Positions 5,450 to 51,662 of a stretch of 64,000 bases of DNA are shown here, piece after piece. The notes under the pieces were generated by a model. That model saw only the letters and a program-made list of their open reading frames with translations, searched no databases and was not told the DNA's origin. Position numbers and translations under genes: made by a program. The DNA is taken from positions 1 through 64,000 of the forward strand of contig NZ_CP029482.1 of the NCBI RefSeq assembly GCF_003151075.1. Reading direction: 5' to 3'. This stretch comes from Pseudomonas sp. 31-12. Its GTDB lineage: Bacteria; Pseudomonadota; Gammaproteobacteria; Pseudomonadales; Pseudomonadaceae. Numbering within the stretch: position 1 is the first letter of the stretch; each line of letters starts with the position of its first letter.

Positions 5450-5998
5450 TTAGAAATTCGCGGGCGTGGCTGCGCTGATTAGTCGCGCCGGCGCATCGAA
5501 CGGATTACGGAAACGGTGTGGCTTGGTACTTTCAAAGTAGTAGCTGTCGCCGGCTTCGAGCACAAAAGTTTCGAGCCCGACCACCAGTTCCAGTCGCCCT
5601 TCCACCAAAATGCCGGTTTCCTCGCCCTCATGGGTGAGCATCTCGTCACCGGTGTCGGCGCCAGGCGGGTAGATTTCATTGAGGAACGCGATAGCCCGGC
5701 TCGGGTGCGCCCGGCCGACCAGTTTCATGGTCACTGCGCCATCGGAAATATCGATCAGCTCGTTGGCTTTGTAGACGATCTGCGTCGGTTTTTCCTGCAG
5801 GATTTCTTCGGAAAAGAACTCGACCATGGACATGGGAATCCCGCCCAGTACCTTCCTCAGCGAACTGATCGAGGGACTGACGCTGTTCTTCTCGATCATG
5901 GAAATCGTGCTGTTGGTGACACCCGCGCGTTTGGCGAGCTCACGCTGGGAAAGACCTTTGAGCTTACGGATGGATTGCAGTCGTTCACCGACGTCCAA
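5450..5998 (-). CDS. pauR: XRE-cupin transcriptional regulator, PauR/PuuR-like
   Basis: Regulator of 182 residues with an N-terminal helix-turn-helix of XRE type (GLSQRELAKRAGVTNSTIS, about residues 15-33) and a C-terminal cupin domain (about residues 105-180, including HEGEETGILVEGRLEL). This is the architecture of PuuR, the repressor of putrescine utilisation; the P. aeruginosa gene at this place is PauR. The start is a TTG codon: GGAGG lies seven bases before it and no in-frame ATG fits. The neighbouring dad genes and the pauB4-like and pauC-like genes further along make polyamine/GABA control likely. An inverted repeat just upstream could be its autoregulatory operator. Confidence 0.85.
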   Translation of the reverse strand: MDVGERLQSIRKLKGLSQRELAKRAGVTNSTISMIEKNSVSPSISSLRKVLGGIPMSMVEFFSEEILQEKPTQIVYKANELIDISDGAVTMKLVGRAHPSRAIAFLNEIYPPGADTGDEMLTHEGEETGILVEGRLELVVGLETFVLEAGDSYYFESTKPHRFRNPFDAPARLISAATPANF

Positions 5999-6124: not shown

Positions 6125-7198
6125 TTAACCCTCGGAATAGAGCTTTGGCACCCGGCGCAGGTTGCAGAAGATCTGATAGGGAATCGTGTCTGCGGCGGCC
6201 GCCACCTCGCTGGCGAGGATGTTCTTGCCCCACAACTCGACGGTCGAGCCCAGGCCGGCCTGCGGCACATCGGTCAGATCAATGCAGAGCATGTCCATCG
6301 ACACGCGGCCGATCAACTGGCTAGGCTGCCCAGCGACCAATACTGGCGTGCCGGTTGGTGCCTGACGCGGGTAACCATCGGCATAACCCATGGCCACTAC
6401 GCCCACACGCATCGGCTTGGGGGTGATGAATTTGGCGCCGTAGCCGATCGGCTCACCGGCCGGCAGTTCACGCACGCAAATCACTTTCGATTCCAGGGTC
6501 ATCACCGGTTGCAGACGGGAAGCCACGGCGTTGGCTTCTTCAAACGGCGTGGCACCGTAGAGCATGATGCCCGGGCGCACCCAGTCGCTCGGAATCTGCG
6601 GCCAACCGAGTACCGCCGGCGAATTGCGCAGGCTGATCTCGGCCGACAAACCTTTGCGCGCCGCTTCAAACACCGCAACTTGCTCGGCGCTGGTCTGCTC
6701 GTGCAGCTCATCGGCCCGGGCGAAGTGGCTCATCAAGACAATCTTCGAGACTTTGCCGCTGGCCAGCAGCCGTTGATAGGCCGCCTGATAATCCTTTGGA
6801 TGCAAGCCAACCCGGTGCATGCCCGAATCGAGCTTGAGCCAGACCGTGAGCGGCTTGCTCAACGCGGCGTTCTCGATGGCTTCGAGCTGCCACAACGAAT
6901 GCACCACGCTCCAGAAATCATGCTCGACAATCAGCGACAGCTCATCAGCTTCGAAAAAACCTTCCAGCAACAACACCGGTGCACGAATGCCAGCGGCCCG
7001 CAGCTCCAAAGCCTCTTCGATACAGGCAACGGCAAACCCGTCCGCCTCGGCTTCCAGCGCCTGGGCGCAACGCACCGCGCCATGGCCGTAGGCATCGGCC
7101 TTGATCACGGCGAGGGCTTTGGCCCCCGTGACTTCACGGGCGATCTGGTAGTTGTGACGCAGGGCTTGAAGGTCGATCAGGGCACGGGCTGGACGCAT
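6125..7198 (-). CDS. dadX: Catabolic alanine racemase
   Basis: PLP-dependent racemase of 357 residues that interconverts L- and D-alanine, feeding D-alanine to DadA. The PLP lysine lies in [12 protein letters not shown] near residue 33. The second catalytic region is the GYADGYPR segment near residue 265, followed by [12 protein letters not shown]. The catabolic assignment rests on the adjoining RidA and dadA genes on the same strand. The last gene of the dad cluster, it lies about 95 bp after the RidA gene. The ribosome-binding site is weak (TAGAAG). Confidence 0.95.
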
Positions 7199-7294: not shown

Positions 7295-7648
7295 TTACGG
7301 CAGAGCGGCTACAACCGACAGCTCAACCAGGATTTCCGGTTCGCACAGTTTCGACTCAACGGTTGCACGGGCCGGGGCGACGCCTTTTGGCAGCCACTTG
7401 TCCCACACCGCGTTCATGCCTTCGAAATGTGCGTCGATGTCTTTCAGGTAAATCGTCACCGACAGCAAACGGCTCTTGTCGGTGCCTGCCAGATCGAGCA
7501 AACGCTCGATGTTGGCCAAGGTTTCACGAGTCTGCTGTTCAATCCCGGCACTCATGTCGTCGCCGACTTGCCCTGCCAGATAGACGGTGCCGCTGTGGAC
7601 AACGATCTGGCTCATGCGCTCATTGGTGAGCTGGCGCTGGATTGACAT
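7295..7648 (-). CDS. RidA family protein (enamine/imine deaminase)
   Basis: RidA/YjgF/UK114 protein of 117 residues. The family hydrolyses reactive enamine/imine intermediates to ketoacids and ammonia, which fits a place in an operon whose oxidase makes iminopropionate from D-alanine. Visible blocks are [11 protein letters not shown] near the N-terminus and [18 protein letters not shown] near the C-terminus. The C-terminal residue set differs from classical RidA, so it may belong to a Rid subfamily. The start was set at the ATG with AGGAG ten bases upstream; this start lies inside the last 29 bases of dadA, implying translational coupling. Confidence 0.85.
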
Positions 7649-45024: not shown

Positions 45025-45618
45025 CTAGTTCGCCAACTTCAAAAGCCGATGCACCAACATCTCGCCGGGACTCCAATCACGCAGGGTCGGCAATAACCCC
45101 TTGTTCCGACTTTTTTCGTAATCGTCCGCGCCCTCCGGAACGACCAGTTCATCCCACACAAAGTAGACCTTCGCAACAATGCCCGTTTGCACGTAATACT
45201 CGGGCGACTCTCCTCGCGCATCCGTTTCAAAATAGGCGGGAACCGGGTTATTTGAGAACACCATCGCCATGTTTACGTGCTTCACAGGTGAGTCCGGGCC
45301 AGCGAGAATCCTGACTTGAACAACTGAAGTCGGAGGAAACACCGACATCCAAAGGTCATCGACTTGGCCAAGGTCCACGATGCCCGGTAGAACTGGAGCA
45401 AGCAGACTGAGATTCACCAAATCCCAATCGTCTCCACCCGCACGCAGAGAAACAATGGGCTCTTGATCAGAAAAATCGGCGATCTCCTGGCTGACCAGCG
45501 CAATGTCATTCTCGATATGGTTTTCTACGACACCGCTCAGGGTACCGCTATCGCGACTGGCATCACCGCATGCGCAGAGCAGAAGAAAAGAAAGTAACCA
45601 AAAAAGCTTCATTAGCAT
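45025..45618 (-). CDS. Lipoprotein with a VgrG C-terminal-like domain
   Basis: Protein of 197 residues with a signal and a lipobox ending at LCACGD, so a lipoprotein. Residues about 100-175 align with the last ~75 residues of the VgrG encoded 2 kb away: WDELVVPEGADDYEKSRNK here, WDELIVPPGSDDYEASRNK in VgrG, 15 of 19 identical, and weaker similarity before it. Its C-terminus continues with GLLPTLRDWSPGEMLVHRLL, which VgrG lacks. It could be an immunity-type protein or a cargo remnant. The start ATG has GGAG five bases upstream. It is separated from the coupled cassette by a repeat-bearing gap. Confidence 0.7.
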   Translation of the reverse strand: MLMKLFWLLSFLLLCACGDASRDSGTLSGVVENHIENDIALVSQEIADFSDQEPIVSLRAGGDDWDLVNLSLLAPVLPGIVDLGQVDDLWMSVFPPTSVVQVRILAGPDSPVKHVNMAMVFSNNPVPAYFETDARGESPEYYVQTGIVAKVYFVWDELVVPEGADDYEKSRNKGLLPTLRDWSPGEMLVHRLLKLAN

Positions 45619-45698
45619 TACAACTCCTGACCATCAACTTAAATTTTGGAGACTGGTAGCTCTCTTCAATATCTACCCCCGTAAAAACAAAGAAAAAC

Positions 45699-45770
45699 AA
45701 AGGGGACGGATTTATTTACTGATGAGCGCCCCACAAAACAATAAGGTCAGTTAATAAATCCGCCCTCTTT
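45699..45770. repeat. Inverted repeat with AAAGGGGACGGATTTATTT arms
   Basis: AAAGGGGACGGATTTATTTAC and its near-complement GTTAATAAATCCGCCCTCTTT frame about 24 bp in the 187-bp gap between the two lipoprotein genes. This arm resembles a repeat widely scattered in proteobacterial genomes, and is unlike the REP classes elsewhere in the window. Confidence 0.7.
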
Positions 45771-45805
45771 TCCCTCCAATTAAATAAATACAGCCACTTT
45801 CATAA

Positions 45806-46681
45806 TTAGTTAAGCGCTTGAATGGTAGGATCCTTATAACTTGAATCAACCTCTATACCCGCATCCGCTGCTTTCTCCTCAAGGTCGCGCCGCTGTTTCT
45901 TATATTTTAAAAGAAGACCAGGTAGCAGCTCTTTCCAGCGTTTCTTATCTTCTTCCTTACCAAACGCAGACCTCCAGTATGCACTTTCACTTTTAAATGT
46001 CAGCGTAATGAGATACGTCGCGCGATCATTTGGCGCATCGTCAGAGTCTCGTCGCCAAGCCCTTAGCGTCAGGTAGGTACCGTCGTTATAAAAATGCCAA
46101 TTGTAGAATTTACCTATCTCCAGCCACTTATCCAGGCTTATTTCGTAATCGGGATCTAACCATGGATGACTCATCACATAGCTGCCTAATACCTCGGCCG
46201 GAGAGGCTATTTTTTCAAGTTGAGAGCCTGATATTCGCGGATCAGATGGCGCGTAATAATTGGACCACCCGGAATTCTTAATCACCTTTATAAAATCATA
46301 TATAAAAGCCTGATACTCTTCATGCCGACTATTGCTTGGAATACTTCTAATAGTCAATTCCAGATTTTCAACGGCCTCACTCACATCTTGATTGACAGCT
46401 ATCTTTACGCCGACAACCTGATCAATGTGCAAGGTCTTATTCACAACGACTGATGGAAGATCATCATCACCAAATGATTTGTCAAATTTGTAAAAACACA
46501 TATTTGCTTGAAGCAAACAATCCTGAAGAAACGTTACAGGACTATTGGACATTACGTCCTTGACAGTCTCACTCATTTGAATTTCAATTAACGGTTTTTT
46601 TGACATGGAGTCACTCCCGGCGTCACTAGCATCGCCACACGCGCCAAGTAAAAGAAAAGAAAGAAGCCAATATTTTTTCAT
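45806..46681 (-). CDS. Candidate T6SS immunity lipoprotein
   Basis: Protein of 291 residues with signal and lipobox LLLGACGDAS. The mature part is acidic in the middle and Lys-rich near the end, with no recognised domain. Its ATG overlaps the stop of the upstream effector candidate (ATGA), which strongly suggests co-translation as an effector-immunity pair. Its signal peptide (WLLSFLLLGACGDAS) nearly equals that of the next lipoprotein (WLLSFLLLCACGDAS), so the two may share an origin. The AT-rich codon use differs from the T6SS core genes. A lipid-anchored immunity protein would fit a periplasm- or membrane-acting toxin. Confidence 0.65.
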   Translation of the reverse strand: MKKYWLLSFLLLGACGDASDAGSDSMSKKPLIEIQMSETVKDVMSNSPVTFLQDCLLQANMCFYKFDKSFGDDDLPSVVVNKTLHIDQVVGVKIAVNQDVSEAVENLELTIRSIPSNSRHEEYQAFIYDFIKVIKNSGWSNYYAPSDPRISGSQLEKIASPAEVLGSYVMSHPWLDPDYEISLDKWLEIGKFYNWHFYNDGTYLTLRAWRRDSDDAPNDRATYLITLTFKSESAYWRSAFGKEEDKKRWKELLPGLLLKYKKQRRDLEEKAADAGIEVDSSYKDPTIQALN

Positions 46682-47685
46682 GTTGCGGCCTTCCAGGTTG
46701 CGATAGTCTCTATCTCACCTTCCATATAGACCTGCTTTTCTTCCATTAATAAATGGTATTGACTAGCGATATCGCCAATAAACTTCATCCGATCATCTTC
46801 ACTGTATAAACTTCCCTTTTCCATTTGGACGCGTAGCTCTGGCGCTTTAACATCACAAGCAGTACTAAAAGCAGCTACTCGCACAGGAACAAACGGGGCC
46901 CATTCAAACCCTGCTTGCATCCACAGTGTCGCCTGAAATAAATAGTCATTATAAATAAGCGGCTGCAGAATTCTACGCTGCTCATGATCAGCAATAGAAA
47001 GAAGGGATTGCAACTGCAAGTCTCTTTTGGCCACAAGGTTAGTAGTCGTTTCAAATCGTTTAATGTACCCGAACCCATCCATTACGTCAGGTGTCGATTT
47101 AAGGTTTTTTAATATGGGCAACGCCTCATCTGCCCAAGGCAAACTGTCCATATTCATCTGCACTTGTGCATCACAACTTTTCGCATTGCGAACGGGCGCA
47201 CAGCTCTCAAACTGCTCCGGATATTTCTTATAAAACCAATGCCAGACAAAGATATCTTGAAATAACCAGAAATTGCCTTTCCCTAGCCCTTTCTTGCCAA
47301 TCCTCAATGGCGGCTGGCCAACAGGTGGCACTCCAATCGTCAGGTAAGGTTCTGCCGGAATAAAATCCAAACCGCACTTAACCTGTTTACTGGCAAAAGC
47401 TGCCAATCCCATCCAATAAAACCGACCTTTTAAATCTGGCTTTCCGTCTTCACCGCGCTCCAAATAAAACTCAGCATAAGCAGCAGCGATCCGCGCAGCT
47501 CGAGCACCAAAATCCGAAACCAAAACCGTTTTTGTCGACTTAGAAAAAAAGGTTTTTTCCGGAATACTTAAACGGCTAATCGCTTCCTGCTGCCCCATCG
47601 TCCACAGCTTGTCGCACTTCAACGCGATCTCTTGAATTGAACAACTCTGGGTGTTCGTTTTAAAAGTAGCTACGGGTGCACTCAT
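46678..47685 (-). CDS. Candidate T6SS effector (DUF2515-like)
   Basis: Protein of 335 residues, no signal peptide. The segment RIAAAYAEFYLERG followed by FYWMGLAAFASKQVKCGL recalls the DUF2515 family; this assignment is from memory and uncertain. Several aromatic clusters are present (FWLFQDIFVWHWFYKKYP near residue 160). It starts within the last four bases of vgrG (ATGA) and ends overlapping the immunity candidate, so it is almost certainly VgrG cargo. Codons are AT-richer than in the structural genes, suggesting recent exchange. Toxic activity is inferred from context only. Confidence 0.65.
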   Translation of the reverse strand: MSAPVATFKTNTQSCSIQEIALKCDKLWTMGQQEAISRLSIPEKTFFSKSTKTVLVSDFGARAARIAAAYAEFYLERGEDGKPDLKGRFYWMGLAAFASKQVKCGLDFIPAEPYLTIGVPPVGQPPLRIGKKGLGKGNFWLFQDIFVWHWFYKKYPEQFESCAPVRNAKSCDAQVQMNMDSLPWADEALPILKNLKSTPDVMDGFGYIKRFETTTNLVAKRDLQLQSLLSIADHEQRRILQPLIYNDYLFQATLWMQAGFEWAPFVPVRVAAFSTACDVKAPELRVQMEKGSLYSEDDRMKFIGDIASQYHLLMEEKQVYMEGEIETIATWKAAT

Positions 47686-49907
47686 TTATTTCTACTCGCT
47701 TCGTAATCGTCAGAGCCTGGCGGAACAATCAGTTCGTCCCACATAAGGTGGACTTCAGCCGTTTCTTCAACGTCGGTTTCGATCCGCGGGTGAAGGCCGT
47801 CTGCATTACTTCTGGAAATTTTTGGTGCGACCGACGAAGGCACAATAATTGCTGCTTTCACAGACTTGATTGGTTTCCCGGTCCCGGTCACAAAACGAAT
47901 CTGCTCATCGAATTTTTCACTGTTTGCCGTACCGGATTTAAGCGTGTTCCCCGCCCGAGCCTGATCCGCAATCAACGGCAAACCCGGTATCAAAATACCA
48001 ATCCCCGTCCCACTCCCCGCCGAACCGCCAGCATTGATCTTGATCACCGGTCCAACAACCGTAATCCCGCCAGCGTCGAGTTTGATAAAGCTCCCACCCG
48101 CCTTCACGGTGAGCTCCATCCCAGCCTCAATCACAATCTTGTCCCCAGCCTTCAGATGAATCTCTTTCCCAACACTAGTCAGCTGCGCAGTCCCCAACTT
48201 CACATGCTGGTTCTGCCCAATCGTCAGGTGGTCATCCATCCGCGCTTCAGTCTTGCGATCCGCAATCGTGGTCCGATGCTCTTCCGCCTTCAACTCGGTG
48301 TAAGTGTTCTTCACCACCGTATCGTGACGTTCATTGCCGACCCGAATCTTCTGATCATGCTCAATGTTTTCATCCCAATCCCGCTGGGCATGGATGAAGA
48401 TCTGCTCGGCGCCTTTCTTGTCTTCAATGCGCAGTTCGTTGTACCCACCACCGCCCGGTGAGCTGAGGGTTTTGAACACGGTGCGAGTCTTGTTCGCCGG
48501 CAGTTCGTAGGGAACCTGGTTTTCCTTGTGATACAGGCACCCAGTCACCAACGGCTGATCGGGATCACCCTCAAGGAACGTAACGAGCACTTCCATGCCG
48601 ATACGCGGAATGACGATGGCGCCATACCGATCCCCGGCCCAACTCGAAGACACGCGCATCCAGCAGCTGGTTTTGTCGTCCGCCAACCCTTCGCGGTCCC
48701 AGTGGAATTGCACTTTGATGCGGCCGTATTGGTCGCAGTGAATCTCTTCGCCTTTGGGCCCGGTGACCATGGCGGTCTGGCTGCCGAGTACGCGGGGCTT
48801 TGGATGTTCCAGCGCGGGGCGGTAGAACACGGTCCATGGGGTGGCGAGGAAGCGGTTGCGGTAGCCCTGGTGGAAGTCGTCTTTGTTGTCGGTGGTGTCG
48901 CTGGTCACGGACTCTTCGAGGACTTGCGGTTGTTTGCCTTCGTGGACGATTTCGGTGAGCAGCCAGAGGTCGTTCCACTCGGTGCGCGGGTGGTCGGACA
49001 TTTCCAGGAAGTGGCCGCTGACCAGAGTGGTCTGATCGCTTTTCCCTTCGGCTTGCTGGTAGTCGGCGCGGTGGCGTTCGAGGGCGCGTTGGCTGAGGAA
49101 TTTGCCGCGCGCGCGGTCGAGGAAGCGGCCGGGGTAGTCGTAATCTTCGAGGTCGGGCTCGGTACTTTCGCCGTCGGGTTTGTACGCGGCTTCAAGTTGC
49201 AGGCGCGGCTTTTCGAAATCGTAGTCGCGGCGGGTGACGCGGCCGGTGCGGGTTTCGAGGCGCAGTTTGAAGCCTTTGATCACCGGTTCGTCAGCGACCA
49301 TGCCGCTGCCTTGCACGTAGGCCGTTGGCTGGCCGAGTTTGGGGAATACGGTCTGGTCGTCGCCGAAGACCAGCAGATGACCTTTCTCGCTGTGCTGGAA
49401 GTGGTAGTGAATGCCTTCCTCTTCGCACAGGCGCTGGACGAAGTGCAGGTCGGTTTCGTCGTATTGCACGCAGTAGTCGCGGTCCGGGCAGGGCTGGCTG
49501 AGCTGGAAGCGGTAGGCGTTGCCCTTGATGCCGTGCTCGTCGAGGATCAGCGCGATGATTTTCGGCGCGGACATCTGCTGGTAGATGCGCTGGTTGGTGC
49601 GGTGATGCAGGTATTGCAGTTGTGGCACCAGGGAGACTTTGTAGCGGGTCAGGCGCTTGCCGGCATCGCCTTGGGCGACGCGGTAGATCTGACCGTGGAT
49701 GCCGGAACCCTGCGGATCGAACGCCAGGAACGCCTGTTTGTGCAGGAGTTTTTCCAGGTCCAGATCGGGGTTTTCGCTGACCAGTTCGAGGTCGAAGCGA
49801 TACGGCTGGCTGATGCCTTCGGTGCCGGTGAACGACAGCACTTGCAGGTCGCCGACGTAGTCTTCGACGGTCAGGCTGAAGTGGGTTTCGTTAGCGGAGT
49901 TGAACAT
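47682..49907 (-). CDS. vgrG: T6SS spike protein VgrG
   Basis: Trimeric spike of 741 residues tipping the Hcp tube. The N-terminus HFSLTVEDYVGDLQVLSFTG begins the gp27-like part. The gp5-like OB fold has HCDQYGRIKVQFHWDREG and CWMRVSSSWAGDRYGA, followed by a beta-helix with repeated T/D motifs (VKNTYTELKAEEHRTT). A C-terminal domain of about 75 residues, DEQIRFVTGTGKPIKSV to the end, resembles an Ig/transthyretin-like adaptor and also occurs in the last lipoprotein of this cluster. The start has GGGAG upstream. It lies 28 bp after stk1 and overlaps the effector gene by four bases. Confidence 0.95.
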   Translation of the reverse strand: MFNSANETHFSLTVEDYVGDLQVLSFTGTEGISQPYRFDLELVSENPDLDLEKLLHKQAFLAFDPQGSGIHGQIYRVAQGDAGKRLTRYKVSLVPQLQYLHHRTNQRIYQQMSAPKIIALILDEHGIKGNAYRFQLSQPCPDRDYCVQYDETDLHFVQRLCEEEGIHYHFQHSEKGHLLVFGDDQTVFPKLGQPTAYVQGSGMVADEPVIKGFKLRLETRTGRVTRRDYDFEKPRLQLEAAYKPDGESTEPDLEDYDYPGRFLDRARGKFLSQRALERHRADYQQAEGKSDQTTLVSGHFLEMSDHPRTEWNDLWLLTEIVHEGKQPQVLEESVTSDTTDNKDDFHQGYRNRFLATPWTVFYRPALEHPKPRVLGSQTAMVTGPKGEEIHCDQYGRIKVQFHWDREGLADDKTSCWMRVSSSWAGDRYGAIVIPRIGMEVLVTFLEGDPDQPLVTGCLYHKENQVPYELPANKTRTVFKTLSSPGGGGYNELRIEDKKGAEQIFIHAQRDWDENIEHDQKIRVGNERHDTVVKNTYTELKAEEHRTTIADRKTEARMDDHLTIGQNQHVKLGTAQLTSVGKEIHLKAGDKIVIEAGMELTVKAGGSFIKLDAGGITVVGPVIKINAGGSAGSGTGIGILIPGLPLIADQARAGNTLKSGTANSEKFDEQIRFVTGTGKPIKSVKAAIIVPSSVAPKISRSNADGLHPRIETDVEETAEVHLMWDELIVPPGSDDYEASRNK

Positions 49908-49935: not shown

Positions 49936-50937
49936 TTACGCCCGCAGTCGCAGGCGTTGCAGCAAAGACGAAGTGGCGCCCAGGGCGTCACGCAATTGGG
50001 CGGCGGTGATGGTGCGCTTGGCCGCATCGAAAGCCAGCGCCGTTCGCAGCGCTGGCCAGCAGTGTTTCGGTAGATTCCGTGGAGCGTGCAGCTCGCGTTC
50101 GAGGTGGCCGTCGCGGGCTTCGGTCGAGGGCAAGCGGCGGAACGGGTGTTTGCCACCCGCCAGTTCGTAGAGCACGCAGGCCACGCCGTAGACATCTGCA
50201 CTGGCCGACAGCGGTTGGCCTTCAAGCAGTTCGGGGGCGGCGTAGCCGGGGGTCCAGGCGTTGAAGCGATCGCGGCTCAGGTGTGGCAGGCCGGGCAGGA
50301 TGCCTTCTTCGGCCTGGCCGAGGCCGAAGTCGAACAGGCGCACGCCTTCTTCGCTGAGCATCACGTTGCTCGGCTTCATGTCACCGTGCAGCACGCCGCG
50401 AGCGTGGGCGTAGGCCAGCGCGTCGAGCAGCGGCAGCGCGATGTCGCGCAGTTCTTTCCACGGCAGGCCCAAGGGGCGCTCGCAGAGTAATTTATCCAGG
50501 GTCAGCCCACGCATGAGTTCCATGGTGATGAAGGCGCGCTGGCAGTCGGTGTCCACTTCAAAGGTGTGAAAGCGCAGCACGTTGTCGTGGCGCAATCGTC
50601 GGGTCAGGGCGAACTCGCTGTAGAGCAAGGCGCTGGCGTCCGGCGATTCGGCAAATTCTTCGCTGAGGATTTTCAGCGCGATGTAAGGGTCGGGATCGCC
50701 GAACTGTTCGCTCAGCAAGTCCCGTGCGCGGTAAACCGCGCCCATGCCGCCGGCACCGAGCAGACGCTCGATGCGGTAACGGCCTGCGAGCACGTCGGGC
50801 ATTTCGCCGACGCTGGCCTTGGTTGGCGCCAGCGCAGGTTCCGCCTGATGAGATTTGGCAAACGCAAAGTAAGTCAGGTTATTGGCTTCCTCGTCGGTCA
50901 CCAGCAGGTCGTCGAGCGGCGGCATGAGTTGGGTCAT
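49936..50937 (-). CDS. stk1: T6SS-linked serine/threonine kinase (Stk1/PpkA-like)
   Basis: Hanks-type kinase of 333 residues. The P loop is LLGAGGMGAVYRARD near residue 60, the lysine in YIALKIL, the catalytic loop VLHGDMKPSN near residue 180, the DFG motif in RLFDFGLGQ, and the APE segment in GYAAPELLEG. The residue before the catalytic aspartate is Gly instead of Arg, so it is a non-RD kinase. No membrane segment follows the kinase, as in the short Stk1 of HSI-II. Its ATG overlaps the phosphatase stop. The kinase-phosphatase pair probably tunes the T6SS through the FHA protein. Confidence 0.9.
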   Translation of the reverse strand: MTQLMPPLDDLLVTDEEANNLTYFAFAKSHQAEPALAPTKASVGEMPDVLAGRYRIERLLGAGGMGAVYRARDLLSEQFGDPDPYIALKILSEEFAESPDASALLYSEFALTRRLRHDNVLRFHTFEVDTDCQRAFITMELMRGLTLDKLLCERPLGLPWKELRDIALPLLDALAYAHARGVLHGDMKPSNVMLSEEGVRLFDFGLGQAEEGILPGLPHLSRDRFNAWTPGYAAPELLEGQPLSASADVYGVACVLYELAGGKHPFRRLPSTEARDGHLERELHAPRNLPKHCWPALRTALAFDAAKRTITAAQLRDALGATSSLLQRLRLRA

Positions 50938-51662
50938 TGTCGGATCACCACGGCAGTCAGGTTGTCCCGGGCCGAGCCACGCAGGGCGCCGTCGAACAGA
51001 CGCTCCAGCGCAACGTGCGGCGCGGTCAGGCTCAGGGCATTGCCCAAGGCATCGCTGCTGAGCCCTTGGTACAAACCGTCGCTGCACAACAGAAACGTAT
51101 CGCCGGGGTAAACCTCGAGCTCGAGCACGTCCAGCGTCAGCACATCAGCCGCCCCGACCGCGCGGGTCAGGGCATGGGCCGACGGATGCGCACGGGCGTC
51201 TTCGAGGCTCATGTTTTGCTCGTCGATCAGTTGCTGTTGCAGCGAATGGTCCTTGGACAGCTGATACAACCGCTGGCCACGCCACATATAGCAGCGGCTG
51301 TCGCCGGCCCAGATGCAGGCCGCGCGATTGCCGTCCACCAGCAGCGCCACCACGGTGCTGCCCATGATGCTGTCGTGGCGCCCGGCGGTGACGGTCAACT
51401 CCTGACCCAAGCGGCGATTCAACCAGTGCAGGCACTGGCGAATGCCTTTGAGTCGTTCGTCGAAGTCATCCTGCACCGGCAATTCCGCCAGGCTGGCGAC
51501 GATCAACTGGCTGGCGATGTCGCCCCCCTGATGACCGCCCATGCCGTCCGCGACCACCCACAGCCCCTGCTGTGGACAGTCGAGAAAAGCATCTTCGTTG
51601 CGCGCCCGAACCTTGCCGGCGTCGGTACGCGCAGCGCTGCGCCAGGGACTGGCAACCAGCAT
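50934..51662 (-). CDS. stp1: T6SS-linked PP2C phosphatase (Stp1/PppA-like)
   Basis: Protein of 242 residues with the PP2C metal-site motifs VRARNEDAFLD, VVADGMGGHQGGDIA, IWAGDSRCYMW, FLLCSDGLYQGL and SARDNLTAVV. It opposes the adjoining kinase. Its start overlaps the tssM stop (TGATG) and its stop overlaps the kinase start (ATGA). The frame is open upstream within tssM, but MLVASPWRSA matches the family start. Confidence 0.93.
   Translation of the reverse strand: MLVASPWRSAARTDAGKVRARNEDAFLDCPQQGLWVVADGMGGHQGGDIASQLIVASLAELPVQDDFDERLKGIRQCLHWLNRRLGQELTVTAGRHDSIMGSTVVALLVDGNRAACIWAGDSRCYMWRGQRLYQLSKDHSLQQQLIDEQNMSLEDARAHPSAHALTRAVGAADVLTLDVLELEVYPGDTFLLCSDGLYQGLSSDALGNALSLTAPHVALERLFDGALRGSARDNLTAVVIRQ

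Follow-up and report, generated by a model that had tools for sequence, protein, structure and literature searches.

A Pseudomonas lipoprotein homologous to the probable effector-docking tail of a neighbouring VgrG, and its possible role as an accessory immunity protein

In enteroaggregative Escherichia coli (EAEC), VgrG1 holds the phospholipase effector Tle1 by a transthyretin (TTR) domain, which also inhibits the enzyme (PDB 6sjl). Immunity lipoproteins of the outer membrane that act against type VI secretion system (T6SS) effectors include Tli1, Tli3 and the Tli1a of Pseudomonas aeruginosa, and Tli3 is reported to have a novel fold of its own (PMC9860674). Dual immunity is reported for Tde5 of P. 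aeruginosa, with the proteins Tdi5a and Tdi5b, one of which was modelled on an exosite off the active site (PMC13392607). VgrG-2 of Vibrio cholerae is described as having a variable C-terminus of about 60 residues that covaries with the effector module; old effector modules are displaced downstream there, and arrays of immunity genes lie behind VgrG (PMC5361080). Docking tails of the TTR type and lipoproteins that confer immunity are known separately, and their fusion was not met elsewhere in this analysis than in the gene described here. This gene, which we call Lip2, lies in the first 64,000 nucleotides of contig NZ_CP029482.1 of Pseudomonas sp. 31-12 (the window), where VgrG, a DUF2515 protein, the lipoprotein Lip1 and Lip2 are transcribed in that order from the minus strand. 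The gp27/gp5-like spike body of VgrG is absent from Lip2; a lipoprotein leader stands in its place, followed by a homologue of the VgrG tail.

A sequence-only reading of this DNA had noticed that Lip2 and the VgrG C-terminus share 15 of 19 residues around WDEL(I/V)VP, with looser similarity for about 50 residues more toward the N-terminus, in a domain put at 75 residues. Both observations were confirmed, the 15 identities lying in the 19 residues from WDEL to SRNK, and the similarity continues past those 75 residues into the linker, for about 120 residues in all (Lip2 54-173 against VgrG 620-741). BLASTP of Lip2 against VgrG gave 35 identical residues out of 104 with an E value of 1e-16. When Lip2 was searched against its own genome the match began at residue 52, and tblastn of VgrG against the Lip2 orthologs of genomes G300 and G382 spanned VgrG residues 620-741. 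The Smith-Waterman score of the pair was 178, while the best of 2000 shuffles scored 56; with the part from WDEL to the end removed it was 89, compared with 46. At the join, near residue 54, PIVSLRAGG of Lip2 aligns with PVIKINAGG or PVVKINAGG of VgrG, and in the next part of the linker LLAPVLPGIVD aligns with ILIPGLPLIAD or ILAPVIPLIAD. For the linker alone (Lip2 54-82), none of 5000 shuffles reached the score obtained with the VgrG of the window, of P. sputi (L072) or of G107, while one did for G177 and 49 for L071. Since the linker also matches, Lip2 holds the linker, the TTR-like core and the end peptide of the VgrG tail. The E value and the shuffle controls rule out chance or low-complexity similarity, and the proposal that spike and lipoprotein have a domain in common is sustained.

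Identity of Lip2 to the VgrG of the window is 8/37 in the linker and 13/56 in the TTR core, compared with the 15/19 of the end peptide. Near-invariant positions, defined as having the same residue in 11 or all of 12 VgrG tails and with the W and D of the motif counted with the core, are kept by Lip2 at 2 of 4 sites in the linker, 8 of 17 in the core and 8 of 8 in the C-terminal peptide. The DNA is also similar, as the sequence-only reading had said, with 42 of 57 bases identical over the 19 codons of the motif, but this does not exceed what is expected from codon usage and the identity of the proteins (37.9 ± 2.4, P 0.07). The motif DNA therefore gives no sign of a recent exchange between the two genes, and such an exchange is ruled out by this result together with the long stem of the Lip2 clade described below.

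Fold models of the VgrG tail and of Lip2, both of low confidence, found their best match in the TTR domain of EAEC VgrG1 when structures were aligned in a second look, and on these models the two folds do not look unrelated. Foldseek returned nothing at E 0.001 or better; of the sequence searches against the PDB, two were without match and one gave a single match at E 0.28. As in EAEC VgrG1, the tail domain follows the VgrG helix and a linker and is tied to one effector family. The effector here is a DUF2515 protein rather than Tle1, however, the EAEC domain was not recovered by the PDB sequence search, and the Lip2 domain is carried by a lipoprotein, not by a spike, and continues for 24 further residues.

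The lipoprotein leader of Lip2, MLMKLFWLLSFLLLCAC, ends in the lipobox LLCAC with the cysteine at C17, as read from the sequence rather than called by a signal-peptide program. With such a leader, which T6SS immunity lipoproteins also have, Lip2 is probably held at the outer membrane and exposed to the periplasm. A fast-evolving spacer reaches from the leader to about residue 53. The private C-terminal tail is kept in the orthologs of G300, G382 and G046, where it lies behind an insertion. Family searches with Lip2 were negative in Pfam and PADLOC (E up to 1) and in NCBIfam (E up to 0.1); those in PADLOC and NCBIfam with Lip1 and the effector were likewise uninformative. Lip2 resembles the Tli-type proteins in being a small lipoprotein, presumed periplasmic, behind a T6SS effector. 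It differs from them in being made from the probable docking domain of a spike, and Lip1 is their closer counterpart.

The sequence-only reading had suggested a search for the domain in other VgrGs and lipoproteins. Among 398 genomes of the genus we found DUF2515 (PF10720) in 68 and, using a tail profile, the domain in 17, all of which were among the 68. Scoring with the profile was limited to 12 candidates per genome here and to 16 in a search of 293 genomes of the order; since only part of the first-look candidates was scored, weak tail copies may be missed. Judged by open-frame length, the 17 tail genomes are those with a short effector of about 330-345 residues or a broken copy of it, and the other DUF2515 genomes have longer or fragmentary proteins. 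The tail is carried by VgrGs of 735-745 residues and by one diverged VgrG of 921 residues, and it usually stands directly before the effector. Its profile matched 11 named loci, all from Pseudomonas. In nine of these the effector and Lip1 follow immediately, in L073 (= G085) they follow a second, degenerate tail, and in L076 only the first effector codons remain. In the order the profile gave three matches including that of the window, and the other two are PAAR-like proteins and not Lip2.

The 29 tail ends that were read, including four same-genome repeats and two orphan pieces, end in ATGA in 28 cases and GTGA in one, and the ATG or GTG is the start codon of a directly following effector; behind the first tail of G085 there is no effector start. 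The end of VgrG had been suggested to be a recombination break. This overlap does not support that view: VgrG ends normally, and the last 24 residues of Lip2 are an addition. Because every tail genome carries DUF2515 and the nearest fold in the second-look alignment is the Tle1-binding TTR domain, the tail is very likely the docking module of the DUF2515 effector, in agreement with the adaptor role suggested for it earlier. Four genomes depart from this rule (G093, G181, G191 and G379). There a short effector is preceded by a gene that encodes some 390-420 residues, lacks the tail and contains MLKPYGQGHRSLWDVIGER, with Hcp- and TssA-like genes nearby as judged by eye (L052, L054, L056 and L062), and a second delivery route for this effector type is therefore indicated. 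The literature searched gave no mention of DUF2515.

Lip2 was found in 4 of the 398 genomes of the genus, namely the window genome, G046, G300 and G382. Other samples gave Lip2 in 2 of 298 genomes and 2 of 194 relatives, and the 293 genomes of the order held the window's own copy only. None of the 11 named loci has Lip2, and tblastn of plasmids gave no match. A scan of genome contigs returned 30 pattern stretches, none of them confirmed, in a search where records near the window genome may be hidden. The order VgrG, DUF2515, Lip1, Lip2, all in the same direction, is found in the window genome, G046 and G300, and in G382 Lip2 lies behind a displaced, split effector. Three of the four copies have an unbroken frame of 197 codons; that of G046 is interrupted between VVPE and GADDYEK by an insertion, partly masked and IS66-like by eye. 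In P. sputi (L072), whose VgrG is 92% identical, the end of Lip1 is at 7188 and a gene of 168 residues begins at 7368. A homologue of the latter follows Lip2 in G046 and G300 (59% identical, E 2e-64), so this locus represents the site without Lip2.

Ratios of nonsynonymous to synonymous substitution (dN/dS) were calculated by the Nei-Gojobori method; the G300/G046 pair is too close for a ratio. Over the whole of Lip2 the ratio was 0.23-0.26 in five ortholog pairs. When the parts were taken separately, the three comparisons between the window, G300 and G382 gave 0.62-1.0 for residues 1-50 (leader and spacer), 0.03-0.15 for residues 51-100, 0.11-0.12 for the TTR part and, on 24 codons, 0.10-0.32 for the private tail. 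The VgrG-derived part, at 0.03-0.15, is under purifying selection. For comparison, in the three pairs with unsaturated synonymous sites, the effector gave 0.07-0.11, VgrG 0.05-0.08 and Lip1 0.13-0.19. In a tree of 22 tails the four Lip2 rows form one clade with support of 100/100 and a stem of 1.65 changes per column; 14 of the 19 inner branches of this tree are open, as is the point at which the clade joins the VgrG tails. The low dN/dS, the conserved private tail and the single long-stemmed clade argue that Lip2 is maintained and probably old, and not a fresh scar.

The leader of Lip2 resembles that of Lip1 in both protein and DNA, and past this N-terminal part the two have no similarity. 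How such a leader may meet a VgrG tail is illustrated by G382. Its VgrG is open, with 680 residues, is 92% identical over residues 1-671 and ends in a different short tail. Behind it comes a new cargo module, a protein of 886 residues and two exported proteins, and then the frame of a third exported protein runs into NAGGAAGSG..., the old VgrG tail, near the join of the Lip2-type linker. This fusion (L063 7977-8648) has a nonsense codon at the W of the motif. The old effector follows, split by an insertion that is IS3-like by eye, and then Lip1 and Lip2, both open. New cargo has thus displaced the old cassette and an exported protein has become fused to the VgrG tail, which is the type of event we propose for Lip2. 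In G168 a first set of VgrG, effector and Lip1 is followed by an orphan tail piece, which directly precedes another effector, with a broken frame, and another Lip1; G085 has two successive VgrG tails before an effector that starts with GTG. The earlier suggestion that Lip2 marks where an older cargo recombined is supported in part only, by these orphan tails and the G382 fusion. Modules pushed downstream, as in G382, are also described in V. cholerae, although the leftovers described there are immunity genes and 3' regions (PMC5361080), whereas here a VgrG tail apparently lies within a lipoprotein. The second cassette of G168 may be either displaced or duplicated.

Of 22 loci (five of them repeats of a genome already included), 21 have Lip1 following the DUF2515 effector, and the remaining locus, L076, has neither. 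Lip1 is therefore likely to be the cognate immunity protein, and likelier than Lip2 to have the main immunity role. For Lip2 we propose, with a probability of about one half, that an in-frame fusion brought the leader of a Lip1-like immunity lipoprotein together with a VgrG tail that had remained from a displaced cassette of tail, effector and immunity gene, and that the product, maintained in a few Pseudomonas species, now serves as an accessory immunity protein or decoy. Lip2 would display a copy of the domain with which VgrG holds the DUF2515 effector, and would grip the docking surface that VgrG uses on effectors reaching the periplasm from sister cells. The gripped effector would be blocked, as Tle1 is by VgrG, or sequestered from its target, with Lip2 acting in a decoy-like way alongside Lip1. 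In favour of this proposal, the docking peptide is the part of Lip2 that selection has retained, and in G382 Lip1 and Lip2 have stayed open where the old cassette has a broken tail and a broken effector. Tde5 offers a parallel in having two unrelated immunity proteins for a single toxin, with Tdi5b as a precedent for a second one acting away from the active site; Tde5 is a DNase, however, and the abstract describes neither immunity protein as spike-derived (PMC13392607). Several observations weigh on the other side. Lip2 occurs in 4 of the 17 tail genomes, whereas a cognate immunity protein should always accompany its effector, and in G046 it is broken beside an open effector. It is therefore dispensable. 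The TTR core has also diverged from that of the window's VgrG.

That divergence, the gain of a conserved private tail and the long stem would suit a VgrG-derived protein whose present partner is a different one (for example Lip1, the spike or an envelope component) and which aids immunity or spike handling instead of trapping the effector. We consider this unlikely, because Lip2 has best preserved the C-terminal peptide, whose residues are near-invariant in VgrGs carrying DUF2515. Less probable still is that Lip2 is an orphan immunity protein whose own effector, a different one using the same VgrG tail, was displaced, and that it is kept against non-self DUF2515 variants. Arrays of immunity genes behind VgrG/effector cassettes are known (PMC5361080), extra copies of Lip1, with or without effector remnants, occur in L016, L018 and L068, and G382 demonstrates that cassettes are displaced; yet Lip2 is unlike Lip1 past the N-terminal part, and neither tblastn of L015, L059 and L063 nor the PF10720 search of the window's own genome revealed a second effector piece.

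A functionless recombination scar, in which a leader was fused by chance to a displaced tail and is merely translated, appears improbable to a somewhat greater degree. Debris of this kind does exist in G168, G085 and G382, and the G046 copy carries an insertion, but a scar would hardly form one clade in four genomes, stay open in three of them and have, in its VgrG-derived part, dN/dS values near those of the effector and VgrG. TssJ has a transthyretin-type fold, and Lip2 is likewise a small lipoprotein with a TTR-like core adjoining T6SS genes. That Lip2 is a TssJ/SciN-type core lipoprotein is nevertheless scarcely credible, since its descent from VgrG is clear in the sequence and a core component would not be confined to 4 of 398 genomes; no TssJ profile matched, with Pfam searched to E 1 and NCBIfam to E 0.1.

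More tentatively, the accessory immunity proposed for Lip2 could mean that a cargo-docking domain of the spike was made into a membrane-anchored decoy that disarms effectors through their loading handle and not their active site; we regard this as possible though doubtful. If so, immunity would be directed at the delivery step, and Lip2 would protect against any toxin riding that VgrG tail regardless of its catalytic domain. Immunity genes could then be born from the delivery machine and not only as active-site inhibitors, with the G382 fusion a like case in the making. Whether VgrG releases its cargo in the target cell is described as an open question of the T6SS field (PMC13133936), and a Lip2 that binds the effector through the copied domain would be a natural separation-of-function tool for it. 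Among the matches listed in the literature search, judged by titles and the starts of abstracts and with subscription papers mostly outside its scope, there was no immunity protein or lipoprotein derived from a VgrG tail.

Table 1. Positions of Lip2, its parts, the neighbouring genes and tail-bearing regions of related genomes
Feature	Position	Strand	Basis or remark
Lip2, lipoprotein of 197 residues	45025..45618	-	open reading frame and comparison with VgrG
Lip2 leader, to lipobox cysteine C17 inclusive	45568..45618	-	protein and DNA like Lip1 leader
Lip2 homologue of VgrG post-helix linker, about residues 54-95	45334..45459	-	
Lip2 TTR-like core, about residues 96-154	45157..45333	-	low-confidence model; best match 6sjl 778-834
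Lip2 docking-type peptide WDELVVPEGADDYEKSRNK	45100..45156	-	15/19 identical to VgrG C-terminus
Lip2 private C-terminal tail GLLPTLRDWSPGEMLVHRLLKLAN, residues 174-197	45028..45099	-	24 residues past VgrG end
Lip1, lipoprotein of 291 residues, probable cognate immunity protein	45806..46681	-	
DUF2515 (PF10720) protein of 335 residues, probable T6SS cargo effector	46678..47685	-	PF10720 E 1.1e-61
VgrG, 741 residues; last ~120 are effector-linked linker, TTR domain and C-terminal peptide	47682..49907	-	
VgrG tail homologous to Lip2 (VgrG 620-741)	47685..48050	-	
G382 displaced-cassette region	L104 612-7826 and L063 4140-8648	-	
G168 orphan VgrG-tail piece and second cassette	L016 5625-7716 (orphan piece 5625-5828)	+	
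G085 two successive VgrG tails before effector (GTG start)	L019 2-1824	+	second tail degenerate, up to 802

Between Lip1 and Lip2 lies a stretch of 111 bases (45690-45800), part of which is 81% like a stretch behind the Lip2 of G046 over 74 bases. This sequence is single-copy in the genome (E 0.001), which rules out a repeated mobile element at this place as the carrier of Lip2. Directly upstream of VgrG, an open reading frame at 49936-51087 on the minus strand is protein-kinase-like by eye and probably encodes a T6SS kinase of the PpkA type. In G107 (L018 1569-8979, minus strand) a single effector is followed by three Lip1-like genes, 32-38% identical to Lip1 and one of them frame-broken, together with other small exported proteins; this may be an immunity array. 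The PAAR-like proteins, each about 458 residues long and from a different family of the order (L102 and L103, in G577 and G476), match the tail profile weakly, at E ~3e-5; by eye they have a TTR-like segment followed by a part like metal-dependent peptidases.
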